From contig CAMCYC010000012.1 of assembly GCA_945883795.1 (NCBI GenBank), positions 1 to 51,235 on the forward strand: DNA of 51,235 bases, read 5' to 3'. The position numbers were made by a program, and so were the translations under genes. The DNA comes from Sulfurimonas crateris. Lineage in GTDB: Bacteria; Campylobacterota; Campylobacteria; Campylobacterales; Sulfurimonadaceae. This document shows, piece by piece, positions 710-15,498 of this stretch. Every line of letters begins with the position of its first letter. Positions within the stretch are counted from its first letter, which is position 1. The notes beneath the pieces were generated by a model. The model had not been told where the DNA came from, made no database searches, and worked only from the letters and a program-made list of their open reading frames with translations.

Positions 710-3481
710 ATGGAAAGAAACAAACAATTTACTTTTAAATATGCTGCTTTCGCAATGAAATATAGATGGATGATGTTTATACTCTCACTCATTTTTACCG
801 TTTTTACAGCATGGGAAATTCAATATGTCGATGTGCGAAACGACCCTGATACGCTTTTGCCTCAATCAAACCGATATGTTGCTACAAATAATTATGTTGA
901 AAGTACATTTGGCATGGGTAACTTATTTGTAGTCGGTATAGAAGTTAAAGAGGGTACTATATATCAACCATGGTTTGTAAATATCGTTCGTGATATTCAT
1001 AAAAAACTTGAAAATATGGAAGGTAGTAACAAATCAAACTTTATCTCTATTGCAGCAAATAAAGTAAAAAATATGGGTGTGGATGAAGAGGGAAGTCTTC
1101 TTTTTAAACGCCTTATCCCAAATGACGGTATTTCTATAACGGATTCGGTTGCCGCAAAAAAACAACTGGATTTTATGAAAGAAGGTTTAGATAACAATCC
1201 CGTCTTAAAGCCTATGATTATAAATGAAGTTGACCCAAAAACTGGTAAAAAATGTTTTAACAATGAAGAAGGTTGTATAGCAAAAGCAACTTTTGTTATC
1301 GCAGATTATGATGATAGTATTAAGCCTCATTATGTGGATTGGGTTCGTCAAGTTGTTGCAGATTTACAGCCGTATTATAATGATGACCGTATTAAAATCT
1401 CGATAGCAGGTGAGCCATACTTTCTTTCATGGATGATGGTAGAACTTTTAGATCACTGGTACCTTTTTGTTTTATCGGTTGTAATTGCCTTTGTTATATT
1501 GCTTGTAGAAACTCGTTCTTTGAGAGGGGCATTGTTCCCAATGATTGGTGTCGGAATGAGTATAGTGTGGACTTTAGGTGTTATGGGATTGAGCGGATTT
1601 AAACTGACAACCATGATGGTTCTAACTCCTATGCTTATACTTGCCGTTGGTATGGGACATGCCATCCAAATAACACGCCGTTATATGCAGTCTATACGAG
1701 AAGGTGAAGCGGTAGAAGAAGCTAGTATTACGGCTATGGGCTATACACTTGTACCTGCTACTTTAACCATTATTGTCGATGCTATAGGTTTTGCCGCACT
1801 TGCAGATGTTGATATCTCATTCTACAAAGATTATGCTTATTTTGGTGTTTTTGGTATGTTTAGTTTGCTTATTACTACAACTACGATTATACCGCTCATG
1901 ATGGTAATGTTTAAAAGTAAAAAGCCAGCTTCTGCTCCTTCGGAATATAAGTGGGAAATGAATTTTGGTATTATAATTGAAAAAATGTTAGCAGGATACG
2001 GAAAAATTATTCCTATAGCTTTTGTTCTTGCGGTTCTCGCAGTTGCTGGTCATTACACTAAAATTGATGAAGGTTTTAGTAACATAATGCAGGATAAAAC
2101 ATATTCTGGGATGGATAAACTTGGTAAAGTGCTAGAAGGTTCTACCTATGATTTGATGCCTGGAGTAGAAAAAGGGATAGATTATGCACAGGCCGCATTC
2201 AAAGATTATTCTCAGCCCGTACAAGATATTTTTAGGTTAAATACTATGATGCCGGGTGTTATCTCTTTTAATATTCCTATTCGTGGAAAAAAAGTACCAT
2301 TAAAAGAGTGTTCAGATGAATATTATGATGCTTTAGATGCTGCAACTGAAGCGGGAACTACGCCTCCTGAAAAAAATTGTTTTAATCCTGAAAAAGATGC
2401 GCCGCAAGGTGTTTTAAATAATGCTATGGTTTTAGCTGCCATGGAAAGGATGGAAACTGACCTTCGCCAAAACAAATTTATTGGTTTTACCGCATCTTAT
2501 GCACAGTATGTAAAGATTGCAAATATGCTTCTCATGACTGAGCCAGGCGATAGACCTAGTTTAAAAGATTTTAGAGTTCCAACACAAGAGTATTTAATGG
2601 CTCGTGATGCGAATGATGATCGTACAGCAGATAGTATTGTTTCTTTATATAACGGTCTTTTAGATTCTGCATCAAGTCCTGGAGACCTAGCTTCAATGAC
2701 TACGCAGGATTACAATAATGGCGTTGTTATGGGATTTATCAATACGATGCATCCAAAAGAGACGCATGAAGCGATGAAATTTATACAAGACTATATTGAA
2801 ACACATAAAAATGAGCCAGGATTCGATATGATTGAGTTTGGTTTTAGAAATGCCGATACTTCTGGAGATAGCGGTGAAATAGCGGATAGTACTAAACCGA
2901 CTTATGTAGAACCAGGCGTGGGTGGATTTTTAGGTGCAACTGAAGCAACTCGTGAAATAACTTTCGACAACTGGCTTCGTAATCCACTTGGAGCTGCTGC
3001 ATTGATTTTCTTGGCAATCGCTTTAATCTTCCGTTCATTTTATGTTGCAGGAGTATTGATGGTAATAGTATTTATCACACTTTTTACACAATACGGAATG
3101 GCTGGATACTATACTTCAATCCAATTCTGGAGCGGTAATTTACACTTTGCCAATCTGGTGTCACTTGCTATCGCTATGGGGCTAGGAATCGATTTTAGTA
3201 TCTATATATTGTCTAGATTACGAGAAGAGTATATGGTAACGAAAGATTGGTCAATTTCTTTAAGAAACACTCTTTCAACAACTGGTTCTTCAGTTATTAT
3301 TTCTGTTGTCGTATTGATTGGCGCATTTATACCGCTTATGGCTACGACATTGGGTAACACTTGGGGAGTTGCAACTTACATAATCGAGGCAATCTTAGTC
3401 GATGTAGTTACATCTTTAACATTCCTACCTATCTTATTGTTCATATTGAAACCAAAATTTATTTTTGGCAAACAAGACTAA
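710..3481 (+). CDS. RND superfamily (MMPL/HAE3-type) exporter
   Basis: A 923-residue inner-membrane protein with the two-fold RND layout: one N-terminal membrane helix (about 20-40), a large periplasmic domain, five clustered helices (about 250-400), a second helix/periplasmic domain (from ~435) and five more helices (about 755-915). Segments such as GVGMSIVWTLGVMGLSG and LAIAMGLGIDFSIYILSRLR are typical of the MMPL/hydrophobe exporter branch, which uses the proton gradient and acts without the drug-efflux type of fusion protein. The ATG follows an AGGA ribosome site. The gene follows an outer-membrane barrel gene, so the two may move a hydrophobic compound (lipid, sterol-like or hydrocarbon). 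The substrate is unknown. Confidence 0.85.
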   Translation: MERNKQFTFKYAAFAMKYRWMMFILSLIFTVFTAWEIQYVDVRNDPDTLLPQSNRYVATNNYVESTFGMGNLFVVGIEVKEGTIYQPWFVNIVRDIHKKLENMEGSNKSNFISIAANKVKNMGVDEEGSLLFKRLIPNDGISITDSVAAKKQLDFMKEGLDNNPVLKPMIINEVDPKTGKKCFNNEEGCIAKATFVIADYDDSIKPHYVDWVRQVVADLQPYYNDDRIKISIAGEPYFLSWMMVELLDHWYLFVLSVVIAFVILLVETRSLRGALFPMIGVGMSIVWTLGVMGLSGFKLTTMMVLTPMLILAVGMGHAIQITRRYMQSIREGEAVEEASITAMGYTLVPATLTIIVDAIGFAALADVDISFYKDYAYFGVFGMFSLLITTTTIIPLMMVMFKSKKPASAPSEYKWEMNFGIIIEKMLAGYGKIIPIAFVLAVLAVAGHYTKIDEGFSNIMQDKTYSGMDKLGKVLEGSTYDLMPGVEKGIDYAQAAFKDYSQPVQDIFRLNTMMPGVISFNIPIRGKKVPLKECSDEYYDALDAATEAGTTPPEKNCFNPEKDAPQGVLNNAMVLAAMERMETDLRQNKFIGFTASYAQYVKIANMLLMTEPGDRPSLKDFRVPTQEYLMARDANDDRTADSIVSLYNGLLDSASSPGDLASMTTQDYNNGVVMGFINTMHPKETHEAMKFIQDYIETHKNEPGFDMIEFGFRNADTSGDSGEIADSTKPTYVEPGVGGFLGATEATREITFDNWLRNPLGAAALIFLAIALIFRSFYVAGVLMVIVFITLFTQYGMAGYYTSIQFWSGNLHFANLVSLAIAMGLGIDFSIYILSRLREEYMVTKDWSISLRNTLSTTGSSVIISVVVLIGAFIPLMATTLGNTWGVATYIIEAILVDVVTSLTFLPILLFILKPKFIFGKQD

Positions 3482-3565: not shown

Positions 3566-5278
3566 ATGAATAATTTAGCTTATATATATAAACTCTGGCT
3601 TAGCATTGTACAAGCAAGCGGTAAGCTCACGACAAGCGATGTTTTATTAGCTGCAAAAAGGCTTGTTGAAGGGCATAGTGATGAAGATATAGCAATCTCA
3701 ATTGATGAATTTGATAAGTTTGCAAAAAATATCTCTTTGGATGAAATTTTGGAATATCTCTATGCAATAGAACCCGCCAAAAAATATGTCATTTTGATTA
3801 ATCTATTTATGGTAATAATGCTTAAAAATATAAGCAATGAAAGAGTTACTTTTAAGCAAATAGCAGCTCTAAAAGATATATATAAAAAATTATCAACCCC
3901 TTATCTTTATGATGTTTTATATCTTTTAATGAATAAAAAGTATTCAAAAGCCCATAAATTACTTGATGAACATGCACCAAATATTAATTTTATATGTTTT
4001 GACCAAAATGCAAGAAGTGAATTTAACCAATCGTTTGAGGAATATCAAATCCGTTTTATTATATTTAAAATAGATGATTTTTTTCTTTTGTTAAACAGCC
4101 ATAGTCATGATTTAAAAATATATACTTATATAAATAAGAATAATCTTACTCTTGCCCAAAAGTGTGTAGAATTTAAAGCGGAACCGTATGAATTTACAAA
4201 GCATAATATACGAGACCATTCAATATATTACATTGATGGGGATTCATTCCTTAGAATAACAAATGATAAAGGGGTGATATATTTAGATGAAAATGTTCTC
4301 ATTAAACTTTTTGGTCCAGTGAATGAAAAATTATTTTTGGTTTCAGAGATAAAAGAGTTTGATAAAAATATTTTTCAATGCTCTATTGCACCAGACCACA
4401 TTTATAATATTAAAAGTAATCATCTTTTTGGAGGATATTCTAGTCGAAATCCAATTATTCAAGATGTAAATTTTAATATAAATGAGGGGGAATTAGTTGC
4501 AATAATGGGACCATCTGGTTCTGGTAAAACTACACTTCTTCGTACATTTGTAAAACAAGCAAAGATTTTAAAGGGTTCTCTTCTTATAAATCATGAAAAT
4601 ATTTCAGAAAAATATTTTCATAGAATGGGTTATGTTGCTCAAGATGATGTTTTAATAAAAGATTTAAATGTTTATGATAATATGTATTATTATTACCGTT
4701 TACATTTTGGTAAAAAGAAAAGTGATGATGAAATTGATAAATTAATTAGTCAACAACTTCGTAGTTTAGGGATTTTAGAGATTAAGTACCAACCAATATT
4801 TAAGAATGGTAAATTTACTATTTCTGGTGGTCAAAGAAAAAGATTGAGCATTGCTCTTGAATTACTTAAAGATGTTGATTTAATTTTAATGGATGAACCA
4901 ACGAGTGGATTATCTTCTTTGGATTCCGAAAATATTATAAAAGAGCTAAAAAAAATTACCTTATTAAATAAGACTGTTATAATTAATATACACCAGCCAT
5001 CAACATCCATGTATAGACAATTTGACCAAGTTATAGTTTTTAATGAATATGGCAATAATATTTACACAAATAAATCAAGTGAAGTACTTAAAATTTTTAA
5101 ATTAGTTAAAACTGAAGATGCTTATTTATTTAATGAATCTGAGGAATCTCGTGAGGATGTTGAGTGCATGAAATGTGATAAAAGTGACCCTGAATTATTA
5201 CTTGAGATACAAGCAGATGAAAAAAGCAATTTTTGGAATCTTTTTAGTTATCTAAATAATTTTACAGTGAAAAAATAA
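3566..5278 (+). CDS. ABCG-type ABC transporter ATPase with extra N-terminal domain
   Basis: 570 residues. The ABC ATPase occupies the C-terminal half: Walker A GPSGSGKTT (315-323), signature ISGGQRKR (S420), Walker B LILMDEP (D443, catalytic E444) and the H-loop at IINIHQPSTSM, which resembles eukaryotic-type ABCG/White ATPases. The first ~290 residues are not part of the ATPase: a helical region (about 1-140, perhaps TerB-like) and a beta-rich region (about 150-280) that I cannot name. Near the C-terminus is a CxxC (C534, C537) in an acidic tail. The stop overlaps the permease ATG by one base (TAATG), so the two are translationally coupled. Inference: energises the permease at 5278. Substrate unknown. 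Confidence 0.88.
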   Translation: MNNLAYIYKLWLSIVQASGKLTTSDVLLAAKRLVEGHSDEDIAISIDEFDKFAKNISLDEILEYLYAIEPAKKYVILINLFMVIMLKNISNERVTFKQIAALKDIYKKLSTPYLYDVLYLLMNKKYSKAHKLLDEHAPNINFICFDQNARSEFNQSFEEYQIRFIIFKIDDFFLLLNSHSHDLKIYTYINKNNLTLAQKCVEFKAEPYEFTKHNIRDHSIYYIDGDSFLRITNDKGVIYLDENVLIKLFGPVNEKLFLVSEIKEFDKNIFQCSIAPDHIYNIKSNHLFGGYSSRNPIIQDVNFNINEGELVAIMGPSGSGKTTLLRTFVKQAKILKGSLLINHENISEKYFHRMGYVAQDDVLIKDLNVYDNMYYYYRLHFGKKKSDDEIDKLISQQLRSLGILEIKYQPIFKNGKFTISGGQRKRLSIALELLKDVDLILMDEPTSGLSSLDSENIIKELKKITLLNKTVIINIHQPSTSMYRQFDQVIVFNEYGNNIYTNKSSEVLKIFKLVKTEDAYLFNESEESREDVECMKCDKSDPELLLEIQADEKSNFWNLFSYLNNFTVKK

Positions 5279-6177
5279 TGAATTCTAATTTACTTAAAAC
5301 ACAAATTGCTTATCAAATTAGACGCCAATTTAAGGTTAAAACTTATGAACGATTAAATTTAATTGTATCATTTATTATAGCTCCACTTTTGGCATTTCTT
5401 TCAGCTTTTATTTTTCGCTCAGATATAGATTTGGTACAAAATCAAGCATATCCTAACTTTTTATTTTTTATGTTAATTTCAGGCATATTCTTTGGTTTAA
5501 TTGGCTCTGTTTTTGAGATTATCAAAGACAGAAGTACAGTACAAAGAGAAAGACTTGGAGGTGTATCCTTATTTGGATATTATGTATCTAAATATTTTGT
5601 ATTAACTTTTTTTGGATTTATTCAAACAATTTTATATAATATAATAGGGATGGTATTTTTGCATATACCACTTGCTTTGGTGGCATTTAACTCTTTTGTA
5701 ATGCTTCTTACTGTGATTATAAGTATATCTTTTGGCTTATTTATATCATCTTTAACTAGAAGTACACTCATAGCATCTAATCTTATTCCAATTCTTATTA
5801 TCCCTCAAATTTTACTTGGTGGACTTATCCCTTATGCTAATATGGATAAATCAATATACTTATGGGAAACAAATTATGATACAGCGCCACCTATTGCCAG
5901 AATTATTCCAGTGAAATATGCCTATGAAGCTATAATTACGGGTAATGTGGCTTTTACTGGAGGCAATAACGAAATAAATGACCAAATTTCTCAAATAGTT
6001 GATTATCTTCAAGACAATCAATTTATGAGCATAGATACACAAAGTTATGTAAGTTATTTAAAGTGTCCATTTTGTTCAAAAACTTGGTTTTATGATATTT
6101 TAATACTTATTGGGTATATTACAGTTACCTTTATTCTAGGGTATATTATTTTTTATAGAAGGATTTTTAATGGTTAA
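5278..6177 (+). CDS. ABC-2 type permease partner of the ABCG-like ATPase
   Basis: 299 residues with about six membrane helices in the ABC-2/ABCG permease arrangement: a cytosolic N-terminus, helices near 27-46, 62-80, 105-128, 138-158 and 165-182, a long extracytoplasmic loop (about 186-268) and a last helix (about 272-293). The loop carries a CPFC motif (263-266) just before the last helix. The motif KDRSTVQRERLGG resembles the coupling-helix region of ABCG permeases. The start overlaps the ATPase stop by one base. A half-size permease would act as a homodimer with two ATPase subunits (family knowledge). The CxxC in the loop may bind metal or form a disulfide, which is inference. Confidence 0.85.
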   Translation: MNSNLLKTQIAYQIRRQFKVKTYERLNLIVSFIIAPLLAFLSAFIFRSDIDLVQNQAYPNFLFFMLISGIFFGLIGSVFEIIKDRSTVQRERLGGVSLFGYYVSKYFVLTFFGFIQTILYNIIGMVFLHIPLALVAFNSFVMLLTVIISISFGLFISSLTRSTLIASNLIPILIIPQILLGGLIPYANMDKSIYLWETNYDTAPPIARIIPVKYAYEAIITGNVAFTGGNNEINDQISQIVDYLQDNQFMSIDTQSYVSYLKCPFCSKTWFYDILILIGYITVTFILGYIIFYRRIFNG

Positions 6178-6580
6178 AATCATGTTGCTAGTTATGTTAG
6201 GTCTTGTGAGTTTGTATGCAAAAAATAGTGTTGATGCTTGTATTCCAATTGGAAAGATTGTGATTCTCAAAAAATCAATCATGGGGCTTGACCTTTCAAA
6301 AGCTCAGAAAGATGAACTTTTAAAGTATGAAGAGGAATTAAAAGAGAAGTTAGGTGACATCAAAGATGGTGCTTATGACAAAAAAGAGAGATTGTCTGAC
6401 TTGTTTAATGAAAAAGAGTTTTTAAGAGCAAAATTTACTGATATTACAGTAAAAGAAAATGTTATTGTAACGAATGCAATTGCAGAATATTTTGAAAAAA
6501 TGTATAAAACACTTAATCAAGAACAAAAACATGCACTTTTAAAGAAATTTAAGAGAATTGAGAAAAAAAGAAATAACTAG
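6170..6580 (+). CDS. Small periplasmic Spy/CpxP-like helical protein
   Basis: 136 residues with a signal peptide (residues 1-17, ending SLYA). The mature part is charged and helical and contains two LTxxQ-like elements (LDLSKAQ 40-46 and LNQEQK 115-120), as in Spy/CpxP/ZraP-type periplasmic chaperones and metal-sensing proteins. One Cys (C24) lies near the mature N-terminus. The start overlaps the permease end by 8 bases, so it belongs to the same unit as the ABC transporter. Inference: envelope-stress or metal-related accessory protein of the transporter. Assignment to the family is by motif and shape only. Confidence 0.6.
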   Translation: MVKIMLLVMLGLVSLYAKNSVDACIPIGKIVILKKSIMGLDLSKAQKDELLKYEEELKEKLGDIKDGAYDKKERLSDLFNEKEFLRAKFTDITVKENVIVTNAIAEYFEKMYKTLNQEQKHALLKKFKRIEKKRNN

Positions 6581-6619: not shown

Positions 6620-6871
6620 CTACATGACAAGACGAATTAATTTCTCATATTTAGCAGGTAGTTCTATTTTTTTACTAGGGAGAAAATTTTCAATAGCAAT
6701 ATTCATCCATTCTCGATTTGTTTTCATCTCAGAGATTTCGATAAAAAATTTGTTTCCTTCGTTGATAAGCTCATACTTTTCAACTGTAAACTTGATTGGA
6801 CCTTGTTCCCCTTTGGGATGTATCTCAAATTCTATTGAATGTGTTTGAGGATTTAATTGAAAATTAATCAT
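6620..6871 (-). CDS. Small protein of unknown function, NREWM domain (copy 2)
   Basis: 83 residues, predicted mixed alpha/beta, no signal peptide or membrane segment. I do not recognise the family. It matches the C-terminal ~80 residues of the product at 7384-7755: both have a KGE..PI.....YE segment, then NREWM (52-56 here), an ELP/LP element and a terminal Met. It lies 20 bases after the gene at 6892-7332, so it is the last gene of a leftward three-gene unit. GAAGG upstream of the ATG fits a ribosome site. Likely a cytoplasmic component of the 6620-10226 island; role unknown. Confidence 0.7.
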   Translation of the reverse strand: MINFQLNPQTHSIEFEIHPKGEQGPIKFTVEKYELINEGNKFFIEISEMKTNREWMNIAIENFLPSKKIELPAKYEKLIRLVM

Positions 6872-6891: not shown

Positions 6892-7332
6892 TTATTTTTT
6901 ATATTTAACATCGACTACAAGACCAATTGCGCCTTTTTTACCTAATCCAATGAGAACATCTTGGTCATTAATCTCTTTCTTAAGTTGTCCAATATTTACA
7001 CCATTTGCTTGTGCAGCTGTAAAAGTAAGATGAAGTTCCTCAAAGGTATCTTTTCCCTCTTTGATGAGGTTTACGATTTGGTCAAAAGTGATATTTTCAA
7101 CTTTATTCATGTCATTTTCATTGATAGCTTTATCCATCATTTCCATCATCCCCTTACCTACAGTGTAGCTCATGCCCAGTGGAGAATACTTAAGAATTTT
7201 TTTTGCAGCACTAACAGCTCTATCTTTTAAAGAACTTTTTTCATCTATTGCTTGACCATCTTCATCAAGAATTTGAATCTCTTTTGTTTCAAAATCAATC
7301 GTAGCATTTACTATTTTTTTTTCTTCTGACAT
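6892..7332 (-). CDS. Hypothetical protein, island component
   Basis: 146 residues, not recognised. The N-terminal ~30 residues are acidic and probably beta-strand (NATIDFETKEIQIL). A central stretch (about 37-62) is amphipathic to mildly hydrophobic and Met/Gly rich (GMSYTVGKGMMEMMDKA), and the rest is helical and ends KKGAIGLVVDVKYKK. There is no signal peptide. AAGGAA precedes the ATG. It is the middle gene of the leftward unit 7755-6620, between the two proteins that share the NREWM domain. The central segment could sit on a membrane or hydrophobic surface (inference). Confidence 0.7.
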   Translation of the reverse strand: MSEEKKIVNATIDFETKEIQILDEDGQAIDEKSSLKDRAVSAAKKILKYSPLGMSYTVGKGMMEMMDKAINENDMNKVENITFDQIVNLIKEGKDTFEELHLTFTAAQANGVNIGQLKKEINDQDVLIGLGKKGAIGLVVDVKYKK

Positions 7333-7383: not shown

Positions 7384-7755
7384 TTACATAAAGGTTTGAA
7401 TAGGAGTATTAAATTTTTTTGGAAGTTCAAACTCTTTGTTTAAGATAAATAAATCTAAAACAGTTTGCATCCATTCTCTATTTGCCTTTAAACTATATAT
7501 AATGACCGATGTAGAATCATCATGTTGAATAAATTCATATTTACTAATCTCAATTCTAATAGGAAGTATTTCACCTTTTAGCATCAACTCAATTAAAAAA
7601 GAACGGTCCTTAGAATCTATTTTAAATGCAAGAACACTACCATAACTTTTTATAACTTGATTAATGATAGTTTTAAAAAGTTTTGAATTTGTCGTGTCTT
7701 TACTCGTGTACATAGTATCTTTAACTATATTTTTAAATGTATCCATCATAGACAT
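7384..7755 (-). CDS. Protein of unknown function, NREWM domain (copy 1)
   Basis: 123 residues. The N-terminal ~40 residues are helical (MSMMDTFKNIVKDTMYTSKD...), and residues ~42-123 carry the domain shared with the 83-residue product at 6620-6871, including NREWM (92-96), ELPKK and a terminal Met. A strong AAAGGGG lies before the ATG. First gene of the leftward unit, 51 bases from the next, and divergent from the repeat protein at 7872. The family is unknown to me; the two copies suggest duplication and functional pairing. Confidence 0.7.
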   Translation of the reverse strand: MSMMDTFKNIVKDTMYTSKDTTNSKLFKTIINQVIKSYGSVLAFKIDSKDRSFLIELMLKGEILPIRIEISKYEFIQHDDSTSVIIYSLKANREWMQTVLDLFILNKEFELPKKFNTPIQTFM

Positions 7756-7871: not shown

Positions 7872-9107
7872 ATGAAAATAAAGGATTTGTCATACAATGA
7901 TAAGGCTGTAAAACTGTTCATAAATGACTTTGATGAGTTCTTTTTAGATGATAAAGGTGTGGAAACTGGTTTTAATATTCATGATGATGAATTGAAAAAG
8001 ATAGCAGATAAAAATAAAGAGCGTTTTAAAGAAAAAAAAGATTATTTTTTGGATAAACAAAAAAATCGTTTTTGGAGTAAGTTGGGTGTTATAAAGTTTG
8101 GTTTTTTTTGTGATAATGACCATGTTATGGATTTTATTGATTTCTTGGAAAATATACATTTAGAGAAAAATAATAATAAGCCACTTAGCGAAGGTATTTC
8201 TAAAGATAATCTTATTGCTATTTATAAAACACTTGAGAATAAATTTGTTGATTTTTCAAAAAAAATTGAGCAAGAAGATAATGTAGATATGAATGAATTG
8301 AAGCAATTTATAGAAACATTTAATCTTTTTGTGAAAACAAGAGCAGATTTATTACCTCATGAATCAATTCCTGTGCCAACTGCACTTCTTAAAAATACTC
8401 AAAATAAAAAGGGTGGTATTTTTAATAATCTATTTAATCTTGCCTCAAAAACTGGTGCAGATGCTATGGATTTTGCATCCAAAACAAGAGACCAAGCGTA
8501 TGGTTTTGGTATTCAAACAGAAAAAGATGCATTTAATTTTACACAAGATACTCGTGATAGTGCATATAACTTTGCGACTAAAACAGAGGATGATGCTTTT
8601 AATTTTGCAACAAAAATGGAAGATGATGCTTATAAATTTGTATCTAAAATGGCAGATGATGCCTATCATTTTGCTAGTGATGGTATGAATTATGGTTATA
8701 TGTTTGCTTCTCAAGGTGAAGAACTGGGTCCTATGGCAAATCGTGTTTTATGGATGGCATCAGAAATTGGATTGATGGCTGATAGAATAGGTGAGATGAG
8801 TGATAGAATAGTGCATACGGAGCATTTAATAATCAATATGTCTGTTATGATATTAAATTTTGGTTTATTGATTGATGGCACTATTAAAACAATAGCAGAA
8901 TCAGGGTTACATGCTCTTAGCATGATATATGATAGAAGTGAAGTTTTCGAACTTAAATCATCATCACAGCATATAGACCTTATAGGTAAAAATATTGAGT
9001 TAATACTCACGCAACAGCATGAATATGATTTAAGAGTTTTGGAAAATCAAAAGGATTTACGAGAAATCACTCTTTCAGCACTTGATAAGATTAATCTAGA
9101 ATATTAA
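7872..9107 (+). CDS. Repeat protein: antirepressor-like N-domain plus 11-mer amphipathic repeats
   Basis: 411 residues from the ATG at 7872, preceded by AAAGGG; a longer reading would need TTG at 7821 and is less likely. Residues ~40-97 (NKERFKEKKDYF, SKLGVIKF, DFIDFLENIHL) resemble ORF6N/KilA-N-type phage antirepressor domains and match the 193-residue product at 9104-9685. Residues 190-286 are eight to nine tandem 11-residue units of form FA.KT..DA[FY]., then four heptads MA.RI.. (288-315), then a hydrophobic helix (about 320-350) and a charged C-terminus. Hendecad repeats make amphipathic helices that in alpha-synuclein, perilipins and apolipoproteins lie on lipid surfaces. Inference: a peripheral lipid-, granule- or membrane-surface protein. 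Function unknown. Confidence 0.8.
   Translation: MKIKDLSYNDKAVKLFINDFDEFFLDDKGVETGFNIHDDELKKIADKNKERFKEKKDYFLDKQKNRFWSKLGVIKFGFFCDNDHVMDFIDFLENIHLEKNNNKPLSEGISKDNLIAIYKTLENKFVDFSKKIEQEDNVDMNELKQFIETFNLFVKTRADLLPHESIPVPTALLKNTQNKKGGIFNNLFNLASKTGADAMDFASKTRDQAYGFGIQTEKDAFNFTQDTRDSAYNFATKTEDDAFNFATKMEDDAYKFVSKMADDAYHFASDGMNYGYMFASQGEELGPMANRVLWMASEIGLMADRIGEMSDRIVHTEHLIINMSVMILNFGLLIDGTIKTIAESGLHALSMIYDRSEVFELKSSSQHIDLIGKNIELILTQQHEYDLRVLENQKDLREITLSALDKINLEY
8439..8729 (+). repeat. 33-base tandem coding repeats (11-residue units)
   Basis: Units begin at 8439, 8472, 8505, 8538, 8571, 8604, 8637, 8670 and (partial) 8703, exactly 33 bases apart. Encoded units include LASKTGADAMD, FASKTRDQAYG, FATKTEDDAFN, FATKMEDDAYK and FVSKMADDAYH. 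The aromatic/aliphatic first residue, small residues and alternating charges recur at the same positions. Conservation is at protein level more than DNA level, so the array is not a recent expansion. Confidence 0.85.
8733..8816 (+). repeat. Four tandem heptads after the 11-mer array
   Basis: MANRVLW, MASEIGL, MADRIGE and MSDRIVH follow directly after the 11-residue units, each 21 bases long. The change from 11- to 7-residue period suggests a surface-lying helix passing into a coiled coil. Confidence 0.7.
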
Positions 9108-9685
9108 AATTTTTTCGATTTTGGAATTGTATGTGACTGTGCTAAATTAAGTACAGTTTGGAGAATACCATTTAAGTTTATCGTATCAGAACTTTTTTCT
9201 ACTGTTGTTTCTCTTTGCTTTCTTATGAGATTGTCTAATGTTAAAATAAAATGATTAATTTCTTCAAGTGGAATATCAGGATTCTTTTTAATTTTATCTA
9301 ATCGTTCTCTTAGCACATCTTCAATTTCAAGATAAAAATTGTGTGTAATTTTTTCTTGTTGCTCATTTTCGCTTAAGTTGATGTCTTCTATAAATTCCAA
9401 AAATTTTAGAGCATCATCACTTTTGAGAGAATATGCTAATCGTATAATTCCCAATTTTGAGAAAAAAAGTATAGAAGAAGTTGTTTTATTTTTGATATAT
9501 TCAATTGCCTCATAACTATAATGCTTTCCTTCGGTCAAAGTTTCTAATAAATTAATAATTTCAGGAACAGAAACATTAAATGCTAGTGCAACTTCTTTAT
9601 ATGAAAGAAACCAATTATTGTAAATTATTAAAGGATGAAGTTCTAGAATATCATATTCTAAAAGTGTAAGAAAATGTTTAGTCAT
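9104..9685 (-). CDS. Antirepressor-like protein related to the repeat protein's N-domain
   Basis: 193 residues. Residues ~24-60 look like a helix-turn-helix (LSYKEVALAFNVSVPEI...) followed by EGKHYSYE, and residues 76-104 (SKLGIIRLAYSLKSD..., FLEFIEDINL) match residues 69-97 of the 411-residue neighbour. The pattern resembles phage antirepressor/ORF6N-type DNA-binding domains. The C-terminal half is helical and charged. The gene is tail-to-tail with the neighbour, their stop codons sharing TTAA (9104-9107). Inference: either a regulator of the island or a binding partner that uses the shared domain. No phage genes are nearby. Confidence 0.7.
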   Translation of the reverse strand: MTKHFLTLLEYDILELHPLIIYNNWFLSYKEVALAFNVSVPEIINLLETLTEGKHYSYEAIEYIKNKTTSSILFFSKLGIIRLAYSLKSDDALKFLEFIEDINLSENEQQEKITHNFYLEIEDVLRERLDKIKKNPDIPLEEINHFILTLDNLIRKQRETTVEKSSDTINLNGILQTVLNLAQSHTIPKSKKF

Positions 9686-9773: not shown

Positions 9774-10226
9774 TTAATCAGTAATTTTTTTATAGATACC
9801 TTTAGCAGCACCCGCCATGATAATCATAGGCACCATACCAGTCATAACACCAACACCCGCAGCTTCACCCATATACCCAGCTAATTTAGTAATTAAATCA
9901 GTAAGTTTATTTTCTCCACCGAACTCTTTTACTATCTCTTTTGCACGGTCAGAACCAGCTAAACGAGCATCTTGAAGTTGTTGGTCTAGAGCATTCAATG
10001 CATTCACAATAGTTTCTGCTGTAGCGTCAAATTGACCCTCAACAATACCTGCTAATGTAGCATCACTTTTAACCACAACAACTTCTTCACTTTTCTTAGG
10101 AGTAGCAACTTTTGTCTTTTCAGCTTTAGGAGCTGCCACTTTTGTTTTCTCAGCCTTAGGAACCACTACTGGTTTTACTTCTGTTTTTGGTGTTGTTTCT
10201 ATTTCCGTGTTAATTGTTTCTGACAT
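9774..10226 (-). CDS. Lys/Ala/Pro-rich protein with hydrophobic C-terminus (phasin- or H1-like tail)
   Basis: 150 residues from the ATG at 10226, eight bases from CTGGAG; the in-frame TTG at 10232 overruns the spacing. Residues ~15-48 are low complexity with a duplicated PKAEKTKVA unit, as in histone-H1-like or phasin (PhaF-type) basic tails. Residues ~60-110 are helical, and the end (about 115-143) is Gly/Ala/Met rich and hydrophobic (GVGVMTGMVPMIIMAGAA), long enough to enter a membrane or coat a hydrophobic surface. Monocistronic, with its own terminator. Inference: a polymer- or DNA-tethering protein of the island, for example linking a hydrophobic body to the nucleoid. Not recognised by name. 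Confidence 0.72.
   Translation of the reverse strand: MSETINTEIETTPKTEVKPVVVPKAEKTKVAAPKAEKTKVATPKKSEEVVVVKSDATLAGIVEGQFDATAETIVNALNALDQQLQDARLAGSDRAKEIVKEFGGENKLTDLITKLAGYMGEAAGVGVMTGMVPMIIMAGAAKGIYKKITD
10095..10160 (-). repeat. 27-base coding repeat (PKAEKTKVA)
   Basis: Two near-identical 27-base units on the minus strand encode PKAEKTKVA twice, followed by a partial third copy (TPKK). Differences are mostly synonymous. Confidence 0.75.
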
Positions 10227-10403: not shown

Positions 10404-10724
10404 ATGCAAATGATAATAGATAGTTTGAGAAAAAAAGGGAAAATTTATAAAAAAATGCAAGAGATTGCACCAAAAGAGCTAGGTATTAGAAATAAAATCA
10501 AGATGTATAAAGCGACAGATGTAGCTGGGTATTTTTGGGCAATTTTTGCAGTGACTCAAAAAAGTAAACTATTGATGAAAGATGTACATAAATTTGAAGA
10601 GATATATGCTAAGTTGGTTTTATTTTTTGACCATAACTTTAAACATAAAATTATTTTTATTGATGCACCTCTTTGTTCTAAAGCAAAAGAAGCTTTTATT
10701 GCGCAAGGTTGGAAAATCATATAA
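10404..10724 (+). CDS. Conserved hypothetical protein upstream of coaX
   Basis: 106 residues from the ATG at 10404. An ATG at 10350 in the same frame would add 18 residues but lies upstream of the likely promoter and has no ribosome site. The protein is basic and mixed alpha/beta with no signal or membrane helix; segments include KATDVAGYFWAIFAV and HKIIFIDAPLCSKAKEAFIAQGW. I do not recognise it. The stop overlaps the coaX start (TAATG), so it is translationally coupled to CoaX and then HisG. A housekeeping role linked to that unit is possible, but nothing in the sequence gives the activity. Confidence 0.7.
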   Translation: MQMIIDSLRKKGKIYKKMQEIAPKELGIRNKIKMYKATDVAGYFWAIFAVTQKSKLLMKDVHKFEEIYAKLVLFFDHNFKHKIIFIDAPLCSKAKEAFIAQGWKII

Positions 10725-11341
10725 TGTTACTTTGTGATATAGGGAACACTTCTTATCATTTTTGTGAAGAGGATAAGGTATACAAAAGAGATGTAAAATT
10801 ATTTGAACCATCAGATATTAAAGAAATAGTTTTTTATATTTGTGTAAATCCACAAGTAAAAATTTTATTACATCGATTAGATAATTGGATTGATTTATCG
10901 CCTTATGTTGCAATGACTAATTATTATGTCACGATGGGGATTGATAGAATTTTTGCATGTGAAGCGATTGAGAGTGGAATTATTGTTGATGCAGGAAGTG
11001 CTATCACTGTTGATATTGTTCAAAATGGAGTTTTTGAAGGTGGTTTTATTTATCCTGGCGTGAATGCCATGAGTCAAACTTATAAAAATATTTCTACAGC
11101 ATTGGATTACTCATTTAACTTTGAGTTAGATTTAGATAAAATGCCAAAAAATTCGAGAGATGCTATAAGTTATGGATATTTAAAAACACTTTATAATGAA
11201 GTCATAGCACATAATATGAATATATATTTAACGGGTGGAGATGCAAAAAAATTTGCTTTTTTATTTTCACAAGCAACGATAGATGAAACTCTAATATTTA
11301 AAGGAATGAAAAAAATTATGAAAAAGGGTAATTTATGCTAA
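10724..11341 (+). CDS. coaX: Type III pantothenate kinase
   Basis: Phosphorylates pantothenate in the first step of coenzyme A synthesis in the cytosol; type III enzymes need a monovalent cation. Motifs in order: DIGNTS (5-10), GIDR (72-75), DAGSAITVD (89-97, substrate/phosphate binding), GGFIYPG (106-112) and LTGGDA near 165. At 205 residues it is shorter than the usual ~255, as in other Campylobacterota. The true start is the ATG at 10724, which overlaps the previous stop and gives the canonical N-terminus MLLCDIGNT; a TTG at 10709 is out of keeping with the family. The 3' end overlaps hisG by 7 bases. Confidence 0.92.
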   Translation: MLLCDIGNTSYHFCEEDKVYKRDVKLFEPSDIKEIVFYICVNPQVKILLHRLDNWIDLSPYVAMTNYYVTMGIDRIFACEAIESGIIVDAGSAITVDIVQNGVFEGGFIYPGVNAMSQTYKNISTALDYSFNFELDLDKMPKNSRDAISYGYLKTLYNEVIAHNMNIYLTGGDAKKFAFLFSQATIDETLIFKGMKKIMKKGNLC

Positions 11342-11961
11342 CAGTTGCACTTCCAAAAGGTCGCATTGCAAAAGAGACTTTAGAAATTTTTGAAACTATT
11401 TTTGGTGATAGTTTTGCATTTGATGATAGAAAACTGATTCTTGATACTCCAAATTTTCGTTTTTTACTTGTAAGAAATCAAGATGTGGCAACTTATGTTT
11501 TTCATCAGGCTGCTGATATTGGCGTTGTTGGACTTGATACTTTAGAAGAGCAGGGCTTAGATGTAATCCGCCTACTTGATTTAAGAAAAGGGATTTGTAA
11601 AGTTTCTATTGGGATGCGCAAGGGTGAAAAACTTGACCTTGATAAACCTGAGATAAAAGTTGCTTCAAAGATGGTAAACATTACAAAGCGTTATTTTGAG
11701 CAACGAGCAGTTTCTGTAGAGATAATTAAGCTTTATGGTTCAATTGAACTCGCACCACTTATTGGTCTTGCTGACATGATAGTAGATGTGGTTGAAACTG
11801 GTGCAACAATGAAACAAAATGGACTGGAAGTTGTAGAAGACATTATGACTTCATCCACTTACCTTATAGCAAATAAAAATAGTTATATTGCCAAGAAAGA
11901 TGAGGTTTTAGATATTTATGAGAAAATAAATAAGGTTATAAAAGCAGAAAAAAATTCATGA
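11335..11961 (+). CDS. hisG: ATP phosphoribosyltransferase, short form
   Basis: Joins ATP and PRPP in the first step of histidine synthesis. 208 residues, the short form lacking the C-terminal regulatory domain; it begins MLTVALPKGRIAKETLEIF and carries the PRPP-binding stretch DMIVDVVETGATM. Short-form HisG works as a hetero-octamer with HisZ (family knowledge), which is not in this window. Overlaps coaX by 7 bases and the next gene by 4 (ATGA), so it is translated within a tight unit rather than a his operon. Confidence 0.95.
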   Translation: MLTVALPKGRIAKETLEIFETIFGDSFAFDDRKLILDTPNFRFLLVRNQDVATYVFHQAADIGVVGLDTLEEQGLDVIRLLDLRKGICKVSIGMRKGEKLDLDKPEIKVASKMVNITKRYFEQRAVSVEIIKLYGSIELAPLIGLADMIVDVVETGATMKQNGLEVVEDIMTSSTYLIANKNSYIAKKDEVLDIYEKINKVIKAEKNS

Positions 11962-12641
11962 CAAATTTAGACCTTTATGCGAAAGCTGAACATTTATTGG
12001 GAATAGAAGAGGCAACAGAAGCACTTTATGATTTATACCGTTCAGAACTTGAAGACAAAGAAGTAAAAACTCTTTTGGATGTTGGTTGTGGTCGTGGTGG
12101 TTTTATGAGACGCATGATTAGTGATGGTGTTACATGTAAAGGCGTAGATTTGAGTCTTGTCATGATAAAAGAGTGTAAAGAACAAGGTTTGGACGCTGAG
12201 TGCATTGATGTGGCTAAAGTGGATGGGCAATATGATGCAGTCGTTTGTATTTTTGATGTTTTAAATTTTTTAAATCAAGAAGAACTCATTAGATTTTTAG
12301 ATGCTATTTCTCAAAAGCTAAATGATAATGGAATTTTTATAGCGGATATAAATACTCGTTATGGTTTTAGTGATGTAGCTGATGGTACAATGAGTAGTGA
12401 GAATGAAAAAGAGTTTTTAAGTGTAGACGCTATATTTGAAAATGAGAAACTTGCAACGAAATTTACGCTATTTGAGAAAAATGAAGACGAGAGTTATACG
12501 AAATATCAAGACACAATAATTCAATATTTTCATAAAATAAATATTTTTCAAAAGCTAAAAAATTTAAAGCTTATTGAAAAACAAAATTTCTCACTCTACG
12601 ATACGGGCGATAAGACACTTCTAATATTTAAAAAGAAGTAA
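11958..12641 (+). CDS. SAM-dependent methyltransferase
   Basis: 227 residues with a Rossmann methyltransferase fold: motif I LLDVGCGRGGFM (39-50), an acidic motif II region (CKGVDLSLVMI) and a motif IV-like stretch YDAVVCIFDVLNFL. Soluble, no signal peptide. It starts inside the hisG stop (ATGA) and ends the unit. The substrate cannot be read from sequence; it could act on a small molecule or a tRNA/protein. The position after hisG does not by itself indicate a histidine-related role. Confidence 0.85.
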   Translation: MTNLDLYAKAEHLLGIEEATEALYDLYRSELEDKEVKTLLDVGCGRGGFMRRMISDGVTCKGVDLSLVMIKECKEQGLDAECIDVAKVDGQYDAVVCIFDVLNFLNQEELIRFLDAISQKLNDNGIFIADINTRYGFSDVADGTMSSENEKEFLSVDAIFENEKLATKFTLFEKNEDESYTKYQDTIIQYFHKINIFQKLKNLKLIEKQNFSLYDTGDKTLLIFKKK

Positions 12642-12657
12642 CATTCTTTTTAAATAT

Positions 12658-12954
12658 TTAATTGTGAGAATGTGTTAAATAAATCCAAAATTCTTTGTGT
12701 GAATAACCTTTATTCAAAAAATAAATTTGAAGAATTGTAACTCTATAAAGTGTTATAAGCATTTTGGCAAAAGGGATAAATAAACTCAAACTAACAAGTA
12801 TAGATTGTTGTTTGTCACCCTTGGATTGCATCATTTCTTGTATACCAATATTTTTACTTAAGTAAATTCCAAAAACTATTGAAAATATAAAGTTCAGTAA
12901 AAGACCAAAAATTATATACGCTATAAAATCTTGTTCGTTCATTCCAGCTATCAT
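12658..12954 (-). CDS. Small membrane protein, unknown
   Basis: 98 residues with two or three membrane helices (about 10-32, 48-66 and perhaps 68-80) and a polar C-terminus. AAAGGA lies nine bases before the ATG at 12954, favouring it over the internal ATG at 12942. No recognised family. It is convergent with the methyltransferase gene (16-base gap) and 72 bases downstream of the DUF3817 gene on the same strand, so the two may be co-transcribed. Confidence 0.6.
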   Translation of the reverse strand: MIAGMNEQDFIAYIIFGLLLNFIFSIVFGIYLSKNIGIQEMMQSKGDKQQSILVSLSLFIPFAKMLITLYRVTILQIYFLNKGYSHKEFWIYLTHSHN

Positions 12955-13026
12955 TTTATCGTTTTTCCTTTAATTTATTAGGTTTGATTAGGCTTGGATT
13001 CTATCTAAAAAATTCTTTAGAATTAT

Positions 13027-13317
13027 TTATTCATAACTTTTGACTTTTCTATCTGTAAAAAAAGTTCCAAAAGGTATCAATGATGCTACAAAAAATAAAA
13101 AACTTTCTTTTTGTGACCATTTTGCATCATCCAACGCTTTGAATAATAAAAGACAAAAAAGTATAAACAAAACACCATGCGTCATACCCACCAATTTTAC
13201 ATAAATCGGATATCCAGCTAAATATTTTAACGGCATGGCAATAAAAAGAAGAACTAAATAAGAATAACCCTCTATTTGACCCATAAGTCTAAAATTTTTT
13301 ACACTATTTTTAAACAT
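13027..13317 (-). CDS. DUF3817 family membrane protein
   Basis: 96 residues with three membrane helices. The family pattern is clear: an N-terminal basic stretch, EGYSYLVLLFIAMPLKY, then a central GMTHGVLFILF and the C-terminal ASLIPFGTFFTDRK. DUF3817 proteins are small inner-membrane proteins of unknown function, sometimes fused to transporters. It diverges from the oadGAB operon, with 160 bases between the two starts. Confidence 0.8.
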   Translation of the reverse strand: MFKNSVKNFRLMGQIEGYSYLVLLFIAMPLKYLAGYPIYVKLVGMTHGVLFILFCLLLFKALDDAKWSQKESFLFFVASLIPFGTFFTDRKVKSYE

Positions 13318-13431
13318 GTATCCTTCTTTTTGTATTTTTATTATAAAATTTTTGGAATTATATAGCTAAAAGGTAACAGTTTACTTATTTTAAAAAATAT
13401 AAATAGAGACTTAAAAAAAAGTTTAAACATC

Positions 13432-13444
13432 TTTACACTATACT
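13432..13444 (+). promoter_or_regulatory. Possible promoter of oadGAB
   Basis: In the 160-base divergent region, TATACT (13439-13444) lies about 34 bases before the oadG ATG and leaves room for the ribosome site AAAAGG (13463-13468). A TATAAT at 13457-13462 is closer in sequence but would leave almost no leader. The rest of the region is AT-rich with nothing else evident. Confidence 0.3.
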
Positions 13445-13477
13445 ACAATCTGCAAATATAATAAAAGGTGTATTAGT

Positions 13478-13705
13478 ATGGATACAAACCTCGTAGTCGA
13501 AGGTATAAAATTTATGGTTTTAGGAATGGGGAGTGTTTTTCTATTTTTAATTATCATGATATTCTTTATGAATATTATGTCGGTTATCATACACAAATTT
13601 TTCCCTGAACCAAGACCTGTTATACCTGGCGAAAAAAAAGCACAAGATAATAGAAAAGTTGTTGCAGCTATCACAGCGGCGATTATTCATCACAGACAAG
13701 GGTAA
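13478..13705 (+). CDS. oadG: Oxaloacetate decarboxylase gamma subunit
   Basis: 75 residues: one N-terminal membrane helix (about 10-35, GMGSVFLFLIIMIFFMNIM), a Pro-rich cytosolic part (PEPRPVIPGE) and a terminal AITAAIIHHRQG. The A..AAI..HR ending is typical of the gamma subunit, which anchors the alpha subunit and helps bind zinc. First gene of a three-gene operon, eight bases before oadA. Confidence 0.88.
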   Translation: MDTNLVVEGIKFMVLGMGSVFLFLIIMIFFMNIMSVIIHKFFPEPRPVIPGEKKAQDNRKVVAAITAAIIHHRQG

Positions 13706-13713
13706 GGATTGAT

Positions 13714-15498
13714 ATGGCTAAAAAATTTATAGATATAATGGATACAACTTTTAGAGATGGTTTTCAGTCAGTTTTTGGTGGTCGTGTACTTATGGATGAT
13801 TTTTTTCCAGCAGTAGAGGCAGCAAAACATGCAGGGATAACTCACTTTGAATTTGGTGGTGGAGCAAGGTTTCAATCACTTTACTTTTACTTAAATGAAG
13901 ATGCTTTTACGATGATGGATAGATTTCGTGCCATTGTTGGACCTGATGCAAATCTTCAAACATTAGCTCGTGGTGTAAATACCGTGATGCTTGATACTGG
14001 TTCAAAAGACCTTATCGATTTACATGCAAAAATGTTTAAAAAACACGGTACGACAACTATTCGTAATTTCGATGCTTTAAATGATGTTGAAAATTTAAAA
14101 TATTCAGGTGAAAGAATAGTGCATCATGGATTAAAACATGAAGTAGTAGTAACTATGATGGATTTACCTCCTGGATGTTATGGTGCTCATGATGTGGCAT
14201 TTTATGAAAAAACTCTTCGTGAAATTTTAGATAGTGGAATTCCATATAGTAGTATTTGTTTTAAAGATGCAAGTGGAACTTCTAGTCCTAAAAAAGTTTT
14301 TGACACTATAAAAATGGCTCGTAAATTAGTTCCAGCAGGAACACATTTACGATTGCACACTCATGAAACAGCAGGCGTTTCAGTTGCTGCTTATATGGCT
14401 GCACTTGATGCTGGTATTGATGGGATTGACATGGCTGCGGCACCTGTTTCTGGGGGAACTTCTCAACCAGATATTTTAACGATGCTTCATGCAACTAAAG
14501 GGATGAATTATGACCTTGGTGGATTAGAAATAGATAAAATTTTAGCGTATGAGAAAGTTGTTCATAGTTGTTTAGAAGATTATTTTATGCCTCCAGAAGC
14601 GACGATGGTTTCTCCATTGATTCCATTTTCTCCAATGCCAGGTGGTGCTTTGACTGCAAATACTCAAATGATGCGTGATAATAATATTCTTGAACGATTT
14701 CCAGAAGTTATAGAGGCTATGCGTGAGGTTGTTGAAAAAGGTGGTTATGGTACAAGTGTAACTCCAGTTTCTCAATTTTATTTCCAACAAGCATTGAATA
14801 ATGTAATGCAAGGTCCTTGGAAAGCTATTGCTCCAGGTTATGGAAAAATGGTTCTCGGATATTTTGGTAAAACTCCAGTTGCACCAGATGCGGAAGTGGT
14901 GAGAATTGCTTCTGAAAAACTGAATTTACAGCCAACAACAGAGAAAGTTCTTGATTTAACTGAAGCAGATGAGACAAAATCTTTGGCTCATTGGAGTAAA
15001 AAGTTAGAAGAAGAGGGGATTGCGACAACTGAAGAAAATATTTTTATAGCGGCAGCATGTGGAGAAAAAGGTATCACTTTCTTAAAAGGTGAAGCAGAGG
15101 TTAATGTTAGAAAATTATCAAATATGAAAAAAGAAGGAAGTACAAATATGGGTAGCGGAAATTATACAGTTGTAGTAGATGGTCAAAAGTTTAGTGTTCA
15201 AGTAGCAGAGGGCAATGCAGATATTCAAGTAACAGCCGTAAATGGTGAGAAAGTAGAAATATCTAGTCCTAAAAATGCAGGAACTGACCTTCCTATAAAA
15301 GCTCTTCTACCAGGTAGTGTTTGGAAATTAGTTGCTAATCCAGGACAAAGTGTTGCTGAGGGTGATGTAATCCTTATTATAGAATCTATGAAAATGGAAA
15401 TTGATGTAGTAGCACCTCGTGGTGGTGTTGTGAAATCTATAAATGTTGCGACAAACGATACTGTAGTAGAAGGTCAAGTCGTAGCAGTGCTAGGATGA
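13714..15498 (+). CDS. oadA: Oxaloacetate decarboxylase alpha subunit (biotin-containing)
   Basis: 594 residues. Carboxyltransferase domain (about 1-300) with [10 protein letters not shown], the carboxylation-site lysine in CFKDASG and metal ligands in LHTHETAG; a conserved central PYC_OADA domain (about 300-460); a linker; and a C-terminal biotinyl domain with ESMKMEID, biotinylated lysine K560. It moves the oxaloacetate carboxyl group onto biotin, for release by the beta subunit. A close relative is PycB of two-subunit pyruvate carboxylase, but adjacent oadG and oadB argue for the Na+ pump. Overlaps oadB by 4 bases. Confidence 0.92.

Follow-up and report, generated by a model that had tools for sequence, protein, structure and literature searches.

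Near the start of the window (the whole stretch of 51,235 nucleotides that was analysed) lies an open reading frame of 411 amino acids with an ATG start, here called HEND, which encodes a Bro-N-like domain, a run of 11-residue repeats (hendecads), a run of heptads and a C-terminal domain (C-domain). It is accompanied by exporter genes and by small genes designated p83, p146, p123, p193 and p152:

2–649, + strand: probable outer-membrane protein (OMP), C-terminal part only, itself without a Pfam match; its complete homologues show a remote relationship to DUF1302-type proteins
710–3481, + strand: MMPL/HAE3-type RND exporter (Pfam MMPL, E 3.5e-36; TIGR00921 (HAE3), E 4.3e-27, below its cut-off)
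3566–6177, + strand: ABC ATPase and ABC-2 permease, kept in five of the six named Sulfurimonas-type loci
6170–6580, + strand: LTXXQ-like protein, a conserved neighbour, below the Pfam cut-off
6620–6871, − strand: p83, a small protein related to the p123 core
6892–7332, − strand: p146, a kit protein that adjoins p123 in Thiovulum
7384–7755, − strand: p123, a kit protein
7872–9107, + strand: HEND
7872–8156, + strand: HEND N-domain, residues 1–95, Bro-N/KilA/APSES-like fold (pLDDT about 88)
8202–8351, + strand: helical pair, residues 111–160 (AlphaFold2 pLDDT about 60)
8463–8726, + strand: eight hendecads, residues 198–285, from the periodicity analysis
8727–8837, + strand: heptad segment with the GxMADRI motif, residues 286–322, from lag-7 identities
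8829–8885, + strand: hydrophobic segment, residues 320–338 (Kyte-Doolittle peak 1.68)
8961–9101, + strand: conserved C-terminal helix, residues 364–410, from the alignment and the AlphaFold2 model
9104–9685, − strand: p193, a paralogue of the HEND N-domain (E 8.2e-7)
9774–10226, − strand: p152, with a K/A/P-rich tail and a helical core; unlinked paralogues lie in the same genome

An earlier note on this DNA had described 11-residue repeats at a 33-base spacing. Indeed, residues 187–286 held 40 identities at lag 11 versus 6.8 expected from shuffles (z 13.4), with periodicity also at lags 22 (z 10.5) and 33 (z 8.5), and self-identity of the DNA peaked at 33, 66 and 99 bases (0.57, 0.57 and 0.56, respectively). 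Over the whole protein the 65 identities at lag 11 exceeded the shuffle maximum of 49 (any lag from 3 to 39, 2000 shuffles), and Tandem Repeats Finder reported a 33-base array of 3.5 copies at 8561–8674. The count of eight to nine hendecads and four heptads that had been given was slightly revised. Eight hendecads stood in register, with F at position 4 in 8 of 8, A or G at position 1 and Y, F or M at position 2, and the 11 identities at lag 7 in residues 286–322 corresponded to about five heptads. The hydrophobic helix placed after the heptads was recovered at residues 320–338, and 16 of the 23 rows of the alignment had a hydropathy peak at this offset. The lag-11 periodicity was present in all nine relatives measured, from all of the architectures described below (z 6.3 to 15.6, values inflated by picking the best window in each case); in three Thiovulum HEND proteins z was 12.4–14.2.

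On an 11/3 helical wheel, F (4), T/M/G (8), A (1), A (5) and Y/F/M (2) of the hendecads gathered on one broad face. The hydrophobic moment was modest (0.25, Fauchere-Pliska scale) and residues 186–285 were acidic (net charge −9). In this the HEND repeats are unlike lysine-rich membrane-binding 11-mers. Perilipin and alpha-synuclein also form 11-mer helices, with which HEND shares the 11-residue amphipathic periodicity; unlike these, it had no match to Pfam Perilipin, and its repeats are acidic and aromatic-rich rather than lysine-rich. No literature joining hendecads, lipid droplets and amphipathic helices was found.

An AlphaFold2 model built from the 23 rows contained long helices. Modelling had been suggested for residues 1–100 and 190–350; the first stretch returned a fold, whereas the repeats were poorly modelled (block mean pLDDT 36–59 past residue 167, unlike the value of about 88 at residues 1–95). 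The long helices, together with an a-d-e-h-like hydrophobic pattern in the hendecads and an a/d pattern in the MADRI heptads, would suit a filament-forming coiled coil, in which straight hendecads and canonical heptads make up a structural fibre capped by the N-domain. The recurrence of the MADRI heptad in otherwise different proteins would also fit a generic oligomerisation element. The low confidence of the model, however, lends a defined coiled coil no support, and a soluble filament would not ordinarily contain a very hydrophobic 19-residue segment such as the one that holds its position in 16 of the 23 rows. A filament is considered quite unlikely.

The heptad motif was also followed outside HEND. 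Matches to LSDDIGxMADRIxEMADRI (L015, L017, L019–L031, L055–L111) lay in many small proteins (those read looked mostly secreted), in arrays of tandem genes and in one frame of 3675 aa (G089), from Sulfurimonadaceae, Gammaproteobacteria, Desulfobacterota, Chloroflexota and Haloarchaea. One such protein scanned (L023) had no Pfam match over the cut-off, and the match in Halochromatium (L109) was a 94-aa protein with no evident signal peptide. A link to sulfur globules through the heptad alone was rejected: the heptad is not a sulfur-globule marker because it is present in Haloarchaea, Anaerolineales and small proteins of 85–115 aa.

The ORF6N/KilA-like N-domain that had been proposed was recovered at the level of fold. 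Against PDB structures, the modelled N-domain matched granulovirus Orf22 (4ye7_B) with Z 9.0 (2.6 Å over 90 residues), Mbp1 with Z 6.3 and Bqt4 with Z 5.2, and parts of it matched other winged-helix proteins (ParA2, RacA, MerR, Ski/Dachshund) with Z 4–6. Against viral models, antirepressor, KilA-N and Bro-N matches were obtained with a match probability of 1.00 and E from 1.4e-4; five reached E 0.001 or better, with low TM over the whole chain. No Pfam Bro-N, KilA-N, ORF6N or other DNA-binding domain was matched in HEND. Residues 1–95 resemble the N-domains of Bro-N/KilA-N/ORF6N antirepressors at the level of fold only; the differences are the lack of a Pfam match, the acidity of the domain and the absence of relatives among the phages and plasmids searched.

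The net charge of the N-domain was −3 in HEND, −8 in L037, −1 in L035 and −1 in the Thiovulum copy L039. Since the domain is acidic here and in the three relatives measured, DNA binding is doubtful and a role in protein binding is at least as likely. The link to DNA that had been suggested for HEND was accordingly not borne out, the domain being acidic, matching no Pfam DNA-binding domain and having a shortened start in the Thiovulum copies.

The same domain could be read as that of a domesticated phage antirepressor-type regulator, whose head binds DNA or a repressor and whose repeats serve as a long dimerisation arm. Besides the fold, the p193 orthologue in L003 matched the anti-repressor Ant (phrog_5060, E 7.8e-4; in Pfam p193 reached only DUF2482, below the cut-off), and relatives of the N-domain without repeats occur in other Sulfurimonadaceae genomes (L016, L018 and G103:C1:243661-243951; E 1.6e-8, 4.4e-6 and 8.4e-4, respectively), with N-domain-only relatives in G096, G024 and G103 among the genomes of the family. 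Yet the domain is acidic, searches of phages and plasmids with HEND and of viral_contigs with the C-domain found no relatives, HEND has conserved chromosomal genes for neighbours, and the N-domain is missing elsewhere while the repeats and C-domain persist. Such a regulator appears very unlikely, and phage origin or mobility of HEND was rejected on the searches of viral_contigs (C-domain), phages and plasmids (HEND).

HEND had no match in Pfam at E<=1 and none over the cut-off in NCBIfam (best E 0.029), and its profile found only chance-level PDB sequences (best E 0.059). Matches in PHROGs were weak (best 0.0092), apart from that of the hendecads of the orthologue L005 to phrog_20836 (E 6.5e-4), to which no function is assigned there; PHROGs, Pfam and NCBIfam matches of HEND and its orthologues were otherwise weak and inconsistent. 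The repeats and C-domain nevertheless constitute a real, well-conserved family without a name in the libraries searched. A scan of the genome collection returned at least 79 loci, and among the matches listed 22 (L033–L054) covered most of the C-domain. Three architectures were distinguished among these. Proteins with the N-domain, cytosolic by eye, came from Sulfurimonas/Sulfurimonadaceae (L033–L038) and Candidatus Thiovulum (L039–L041). Tat-type lipoproteins of about 540–700 aa (L042–L049; the open fragment L047 lacks the N-terminus, and the L043 gene is broken into two frames) came from Thiomicrorhabdus, Thiotrichales, Sulfuricurvum, Sulfurimonas and Campylobacterales. Short forms came from Desulfobulbaceae (L050) and unclassified Pseudomonadota MAGs (L051–L054). 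The taxa of L033–L048 are ones that we take to be sulfur oxidisers. Loci consisting of the same DNA were counted once (L033/L003, L035/L004, L037/L005, L044/L011, L045/L012, L048/L010 and L049/L013), and Tat signals and missing signal peptides were judged by eye, as were the names TolC, HlyD and restriction genes and, for genes beyond the window, ABC.

The N-domain was missing from the Tat and short architectures, in which the repeats and C-domain persist. The pairing of hendecads with an antirepressor-like fold, which the earlier note had singled out, is present in this one protein; what it had missed is that the conserved core is the C-terminal half and that other lineages lack the N-domain. 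In a midpoint-rooted tree of the 23 rows, a single branch separated each of the four groups (Sulfurimonas, Thiovulum, Tat and short) from the remaining rows (support 91/94 to 100/100). One hendecad/heptad domain thus occurs both without a signal peptide and, across the membrane, as a Tat-type lipoprotein, a point that would hold even if the cargo were lipid.

Among 200 genomes of the family, 46 contained some HEND match at E 0.01, five carried the cytosolic form (the G026 copy only as a contig-end fragment) and eight had the C-domain inside larger proteins. Most other matches were to the short MADRI heptad and lay in small proteins that, where read, were mostly secreted; a few were to the N-domain alone. 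Among 298 genomes of the phylum, eight matched HEND at E 1e-8, four of them only around the heptad.

The gene order OMP-MMPL-ABC-ABC-LTXXQ-p83-p146-p123-HEND-p193-p152 was kept in L033–L036 and L038 where contigs reach; in L037 the cluster was rearranged, with no ABC genes in its 20 kb. In L038, type I restriction-like genes and a nucleotidyltransferase-like gene (10548–16644) split the cluster between HEND and p193. A LolA-like gene lay upstream of the OMP gene in L037 and L135. In the Tat architecture, a LolA-like gene directly followed the Tat gene in 12 of 12 loci seen (L006–L009, L042–L049), confirmed over the Pfam cut-off (PF17131) in seven and named by eye in the others (L007–L009, L044, L047). 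Where contigs reach, there followed a divergent transporter of about 613–622 aa, whose helix groups are laid out RND-like in hydropathy plots, and an outer-membrane-type protein whose profile proved related to that of the Sulfurimonas OMP (probability score 91) and which Pfam assigns to DUF1302 in L048 but in neither L042 nor L046. A YcaO-like protein (by eye) is encoded at 27375–29006 of the window, and the Tat-lipoprotein gene of Thiomicrorhabdus is immediately preceded by a similar one (L042, 6581–8326). Near the Tat loci, a conserved secreted-looking protein of ~330 aa is encoded divergently from the transporter genes (L048 7296–8279, L045 6634–7626, L049 15378–16361); the L048 copy had no Pfam match.

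These neighbours raise the prospect that the C-domain is an envelope scaffold aiding an MMPL-LolA-outer-membrane machine, or its RND-like counterpart, in moving a lipid or other hydrophobe, working from the cytosolic side in Sulfurimonas and, as a Tat-lipoprotein, from the periplasm, with no inclusion involved. The regular succession of Tat and LolA-like genes speaks for it, as do the RND-like layout of the Tat-locus transporter and the presence of LolA-OMP-MMPL in Sulfurimonas-type genomes and in T. imperiosus (43–60% identity by pieces). T. karukerense and T. stygium, however, had no MMPL match at E 1e-10, yet both carry HEND and p152. The Tat-locus transporter matched no Pfam or NCBIfam model and aligned only weakly with MMPL by profile (probability score 19), the two LolA-like groups aligned weakly with each other (probability score 24) although both match PF17131, and HEND, p123, p146, p152 and p193 have no signal peptide by eye. 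An envelope scaffold is rated as possible, on the doubtful side. With two of three Thiovulum genomes lacking an MMPL match, the exporter is taken to be optional, so that the core consists of HEND, p152 and p123/p146.

A described cassette with similar transporter classes is AmeABCD, a combination of an HAE3 RND protein, DUF1302 and a LolA-superfamily DUF1329 protein, tied in the accessible text to tolerance and efflux of apolar monoterpenes and to Nile Red efflux (PMC6394551). Such classes adjoin the HEND family in two of its architectures. The differences are that no hendecad protein is mentioned for AmeABCD in that text, that the LolA-like proteins here belong to PF17131, and that only in L048 does Pfam place the outer-membrane protein in DUF1302. 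MMPL, RND, lipoprotein and FadL go unmentioned in the available portion of PMC10045233.

The small genes around HEND were strongly co-distributed. Six of the 200 family genomes had p146, and exactly these six also had p152; five of them carry cytosolic HEND; the sixth (G028, 80% complete) holds p123-p146-p83-p152. Identical sets of six would arise by independent draws with probability 1.2e-11, a value to be read with the relatedness of the genomes, which are not independent. The p152 profile was found in all three Thiovulum and all five Sulfurimonas-type genomes searched and in none of seven with the Tat or short architectures; another draw of 298 phylum genomes had it in the window's own genome only. 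HEND was present in all three Thiovulum genomes searched; two of these had p146, each with a p123 homologue directly upstream, and the third had no p146 match. The complete-genome record of T. stygium contains HEND, p152 and p123-p146.

Several p152 paralogues have K/A/P-rich tails, whose charge ranges from +2 in the window to +8 in one copy of L037, and members at unlinked sites include G000 C30, beside TolC-HlyD-RND-like genes, and G000 C36. A clear 11-residue periodicity was detected in two of six paralogues measured and was weak in the other four (z 2.5–3.9). One paralogue (L163) approached Phasin_2 (E 3.4e-5, 24.4 bits, under the cut-off of 24.9), another Apolipoprotein (E 2.3e-5, 24.6 bits, cut-off 90), and p152 itself matched Perilipin (PF03036) below the cut-off (E 0.007, 15.9 bits, cut-off 33; HEND had no match). 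The p152 model was helical but poor (pLDDT 49), and the p152 profile found only chance-level PDB sequences (best E 0.45).

The known proteins most like p152 are PhaF and PhaM, phasins of PHB/PHA granules with nucleoid-tethering tails that bind granules and, via histone-like domains, DNA, and AlgP of polyP granules, as described in the portion of PMC13052382 available. Like them, p152 is helical in its model and belongs to a family with tails rich in K/A/P, of which each genome has several paralogues; one of these nearly matches Phasin_2 (PF09361). The family is set apart by the variable tail charge, and the kit as a whole by the lack of a PHA synthase and of any phasin match in HEND. PhaC_N was matched over the cut-off in 0 of 200 family genomes (a single sub-cut-off match lay in G075, which is not a kit genome) and in 0 of 9 kit genomes, with a positive Caulobacter control in each search, and a PHA granule was rejected on this ground. 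WS/DGAT neutral-lipid synthesis was matched in 0 of 9 kit genomes, which is no evidence of absence because the control matched nowhere.

From the phasin likeness of p152, the lack of PhaC and the sulfur inclusions of Thiovulum, a phasin-like inclusion kit was proposed. HEND may form a large part of such a surface kit for a hydrophobic intracellular body, with sulfur as the leading cargo, a reading that we hold to be plausible but somewhat short of probable. Elemental sulfur leads because a sulfur-storing organism, Thiovulum, carries the kit: 20–30 sulfur inclusions per cell are reported for T. stygium in the accessible text of PMC9938260. The tie to a hydrophobic body that the earlier note had raised gains indirect support and remains a good lead, through the sub-cut-off phasin and apolipoprotein likeness of the co-occurring proteins and the adjoining MMPL exporter genes; its DNA side gained no support.

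We infer cellular location, surface binding, oligomerisation, partner binding and cargo as follows. The straight hendecad helix and the hydrophobic helix after it would lie on, or dip into, a hydrophobic surface, and the MADRI heptads and C-terminal helix would let HEND oligomerise. The Bro-N-like head might hold a partner protein at that surface, perhaps p193 or the p152 family. The latter, given its K/A/P-rich tails and the 11-residue repeats of some members, would act as a phasin-like coat. The body would not be PHA, elemental sulfur being the first candidate, and the adjoining MMPL/LolA/outer-membrane exporter could move apolar molecules across the envelope.

In its narrowest form, the proposal holds that HEND, p152, p146 and p123 are the dedicated coat or scaffold of intracellular elemental-sulfur inclusions in Campylobacterota, with what seems, from profile matches, only sub-cut-off likeness to described coat families; we regard this version as unlikely. 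Against an inclusion coat stand the cytosolic appearance of the kit by eye, versus sulfur globules generally held to be periplasmic (accessible text of PMC10386293), and phasin, perilipin and apolipoprotein matches that are all under cut-off. So do the acidity and modest moment of the hendecads, the poor modelling of the HEND repeats and of p152, the weak lag-11 signals of four of six p152 paralogues, and the Thiovulum genomes without an MMPL or p146 match. For the kit-bearing Sulfurimonas, MAGs among them, the parts of the literature found document no intracellular inclusion, and a cultured member of the genus, S. hydrogeniphila, makes extracellular sulfur (partial text of PMC7952632).

Sulfur oxidation is generally known from the group. 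As p146 and p152 are absent from 194 of the 200 family genomes, it does not by itself explain the kit.

The nearest sulfur-globule counterpart is SgpD of Allochromatium vinosum, for which a coiled coil has been suggested and whose gene adjoins that of an exporter of hydrophobic or amphiphilic compounds; the protein is Sec-exported, proline-patterned and nearly confined to Chromatiaceae (all from the available portion of PMC10386293). Compared by description only, SgpD and HEND are alike in being repetitive, possibly coiled-coil proteins of sulfur oxidisers with genes beside exporter genes, and differ in the Sec export, proline pattern and narrow distribution of SgpD. The coating of sulfur outside the purple sulfur bacteria seems little known. 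A search by title and abstract opening, which left most subscription literature outside, found no paper on sulfur globule proteins of Campylobacterota. If the sulfur reading is correct, the rare kit-bearing Sulfurimonas are predicted to store sulfur intracellularly too. The compact, strongly co-occurring set in giant Thiovulum and a few Sulfurimonas would supply named candidates for an inclusion coat, testable by inclusion proteomics.

Further features were observed beside kit genes in other genomes. TolC-HlyD-split-RND-like genes (by eye) adjoin a p152 paralogue or the kit at L133 790–6341, L135 2677–8172, L037 1508–7010 and L141 2287–5999. At L137 9747–10613 and L140 4195–5073 the p152 core is preceded by ~100 N-terminal residues that include two similar segments, in genes convergent with a DNA polymerase IV-like gene. 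In two Thiovulum genomes, small secreted-looking proteins or lipoproteins are encoded directly downstream of p123-p146 (L183 1927–3421, L193 9621–11426), several of them with Pro/Met-rich motifs (PPMLP, PPMPPMMLL).
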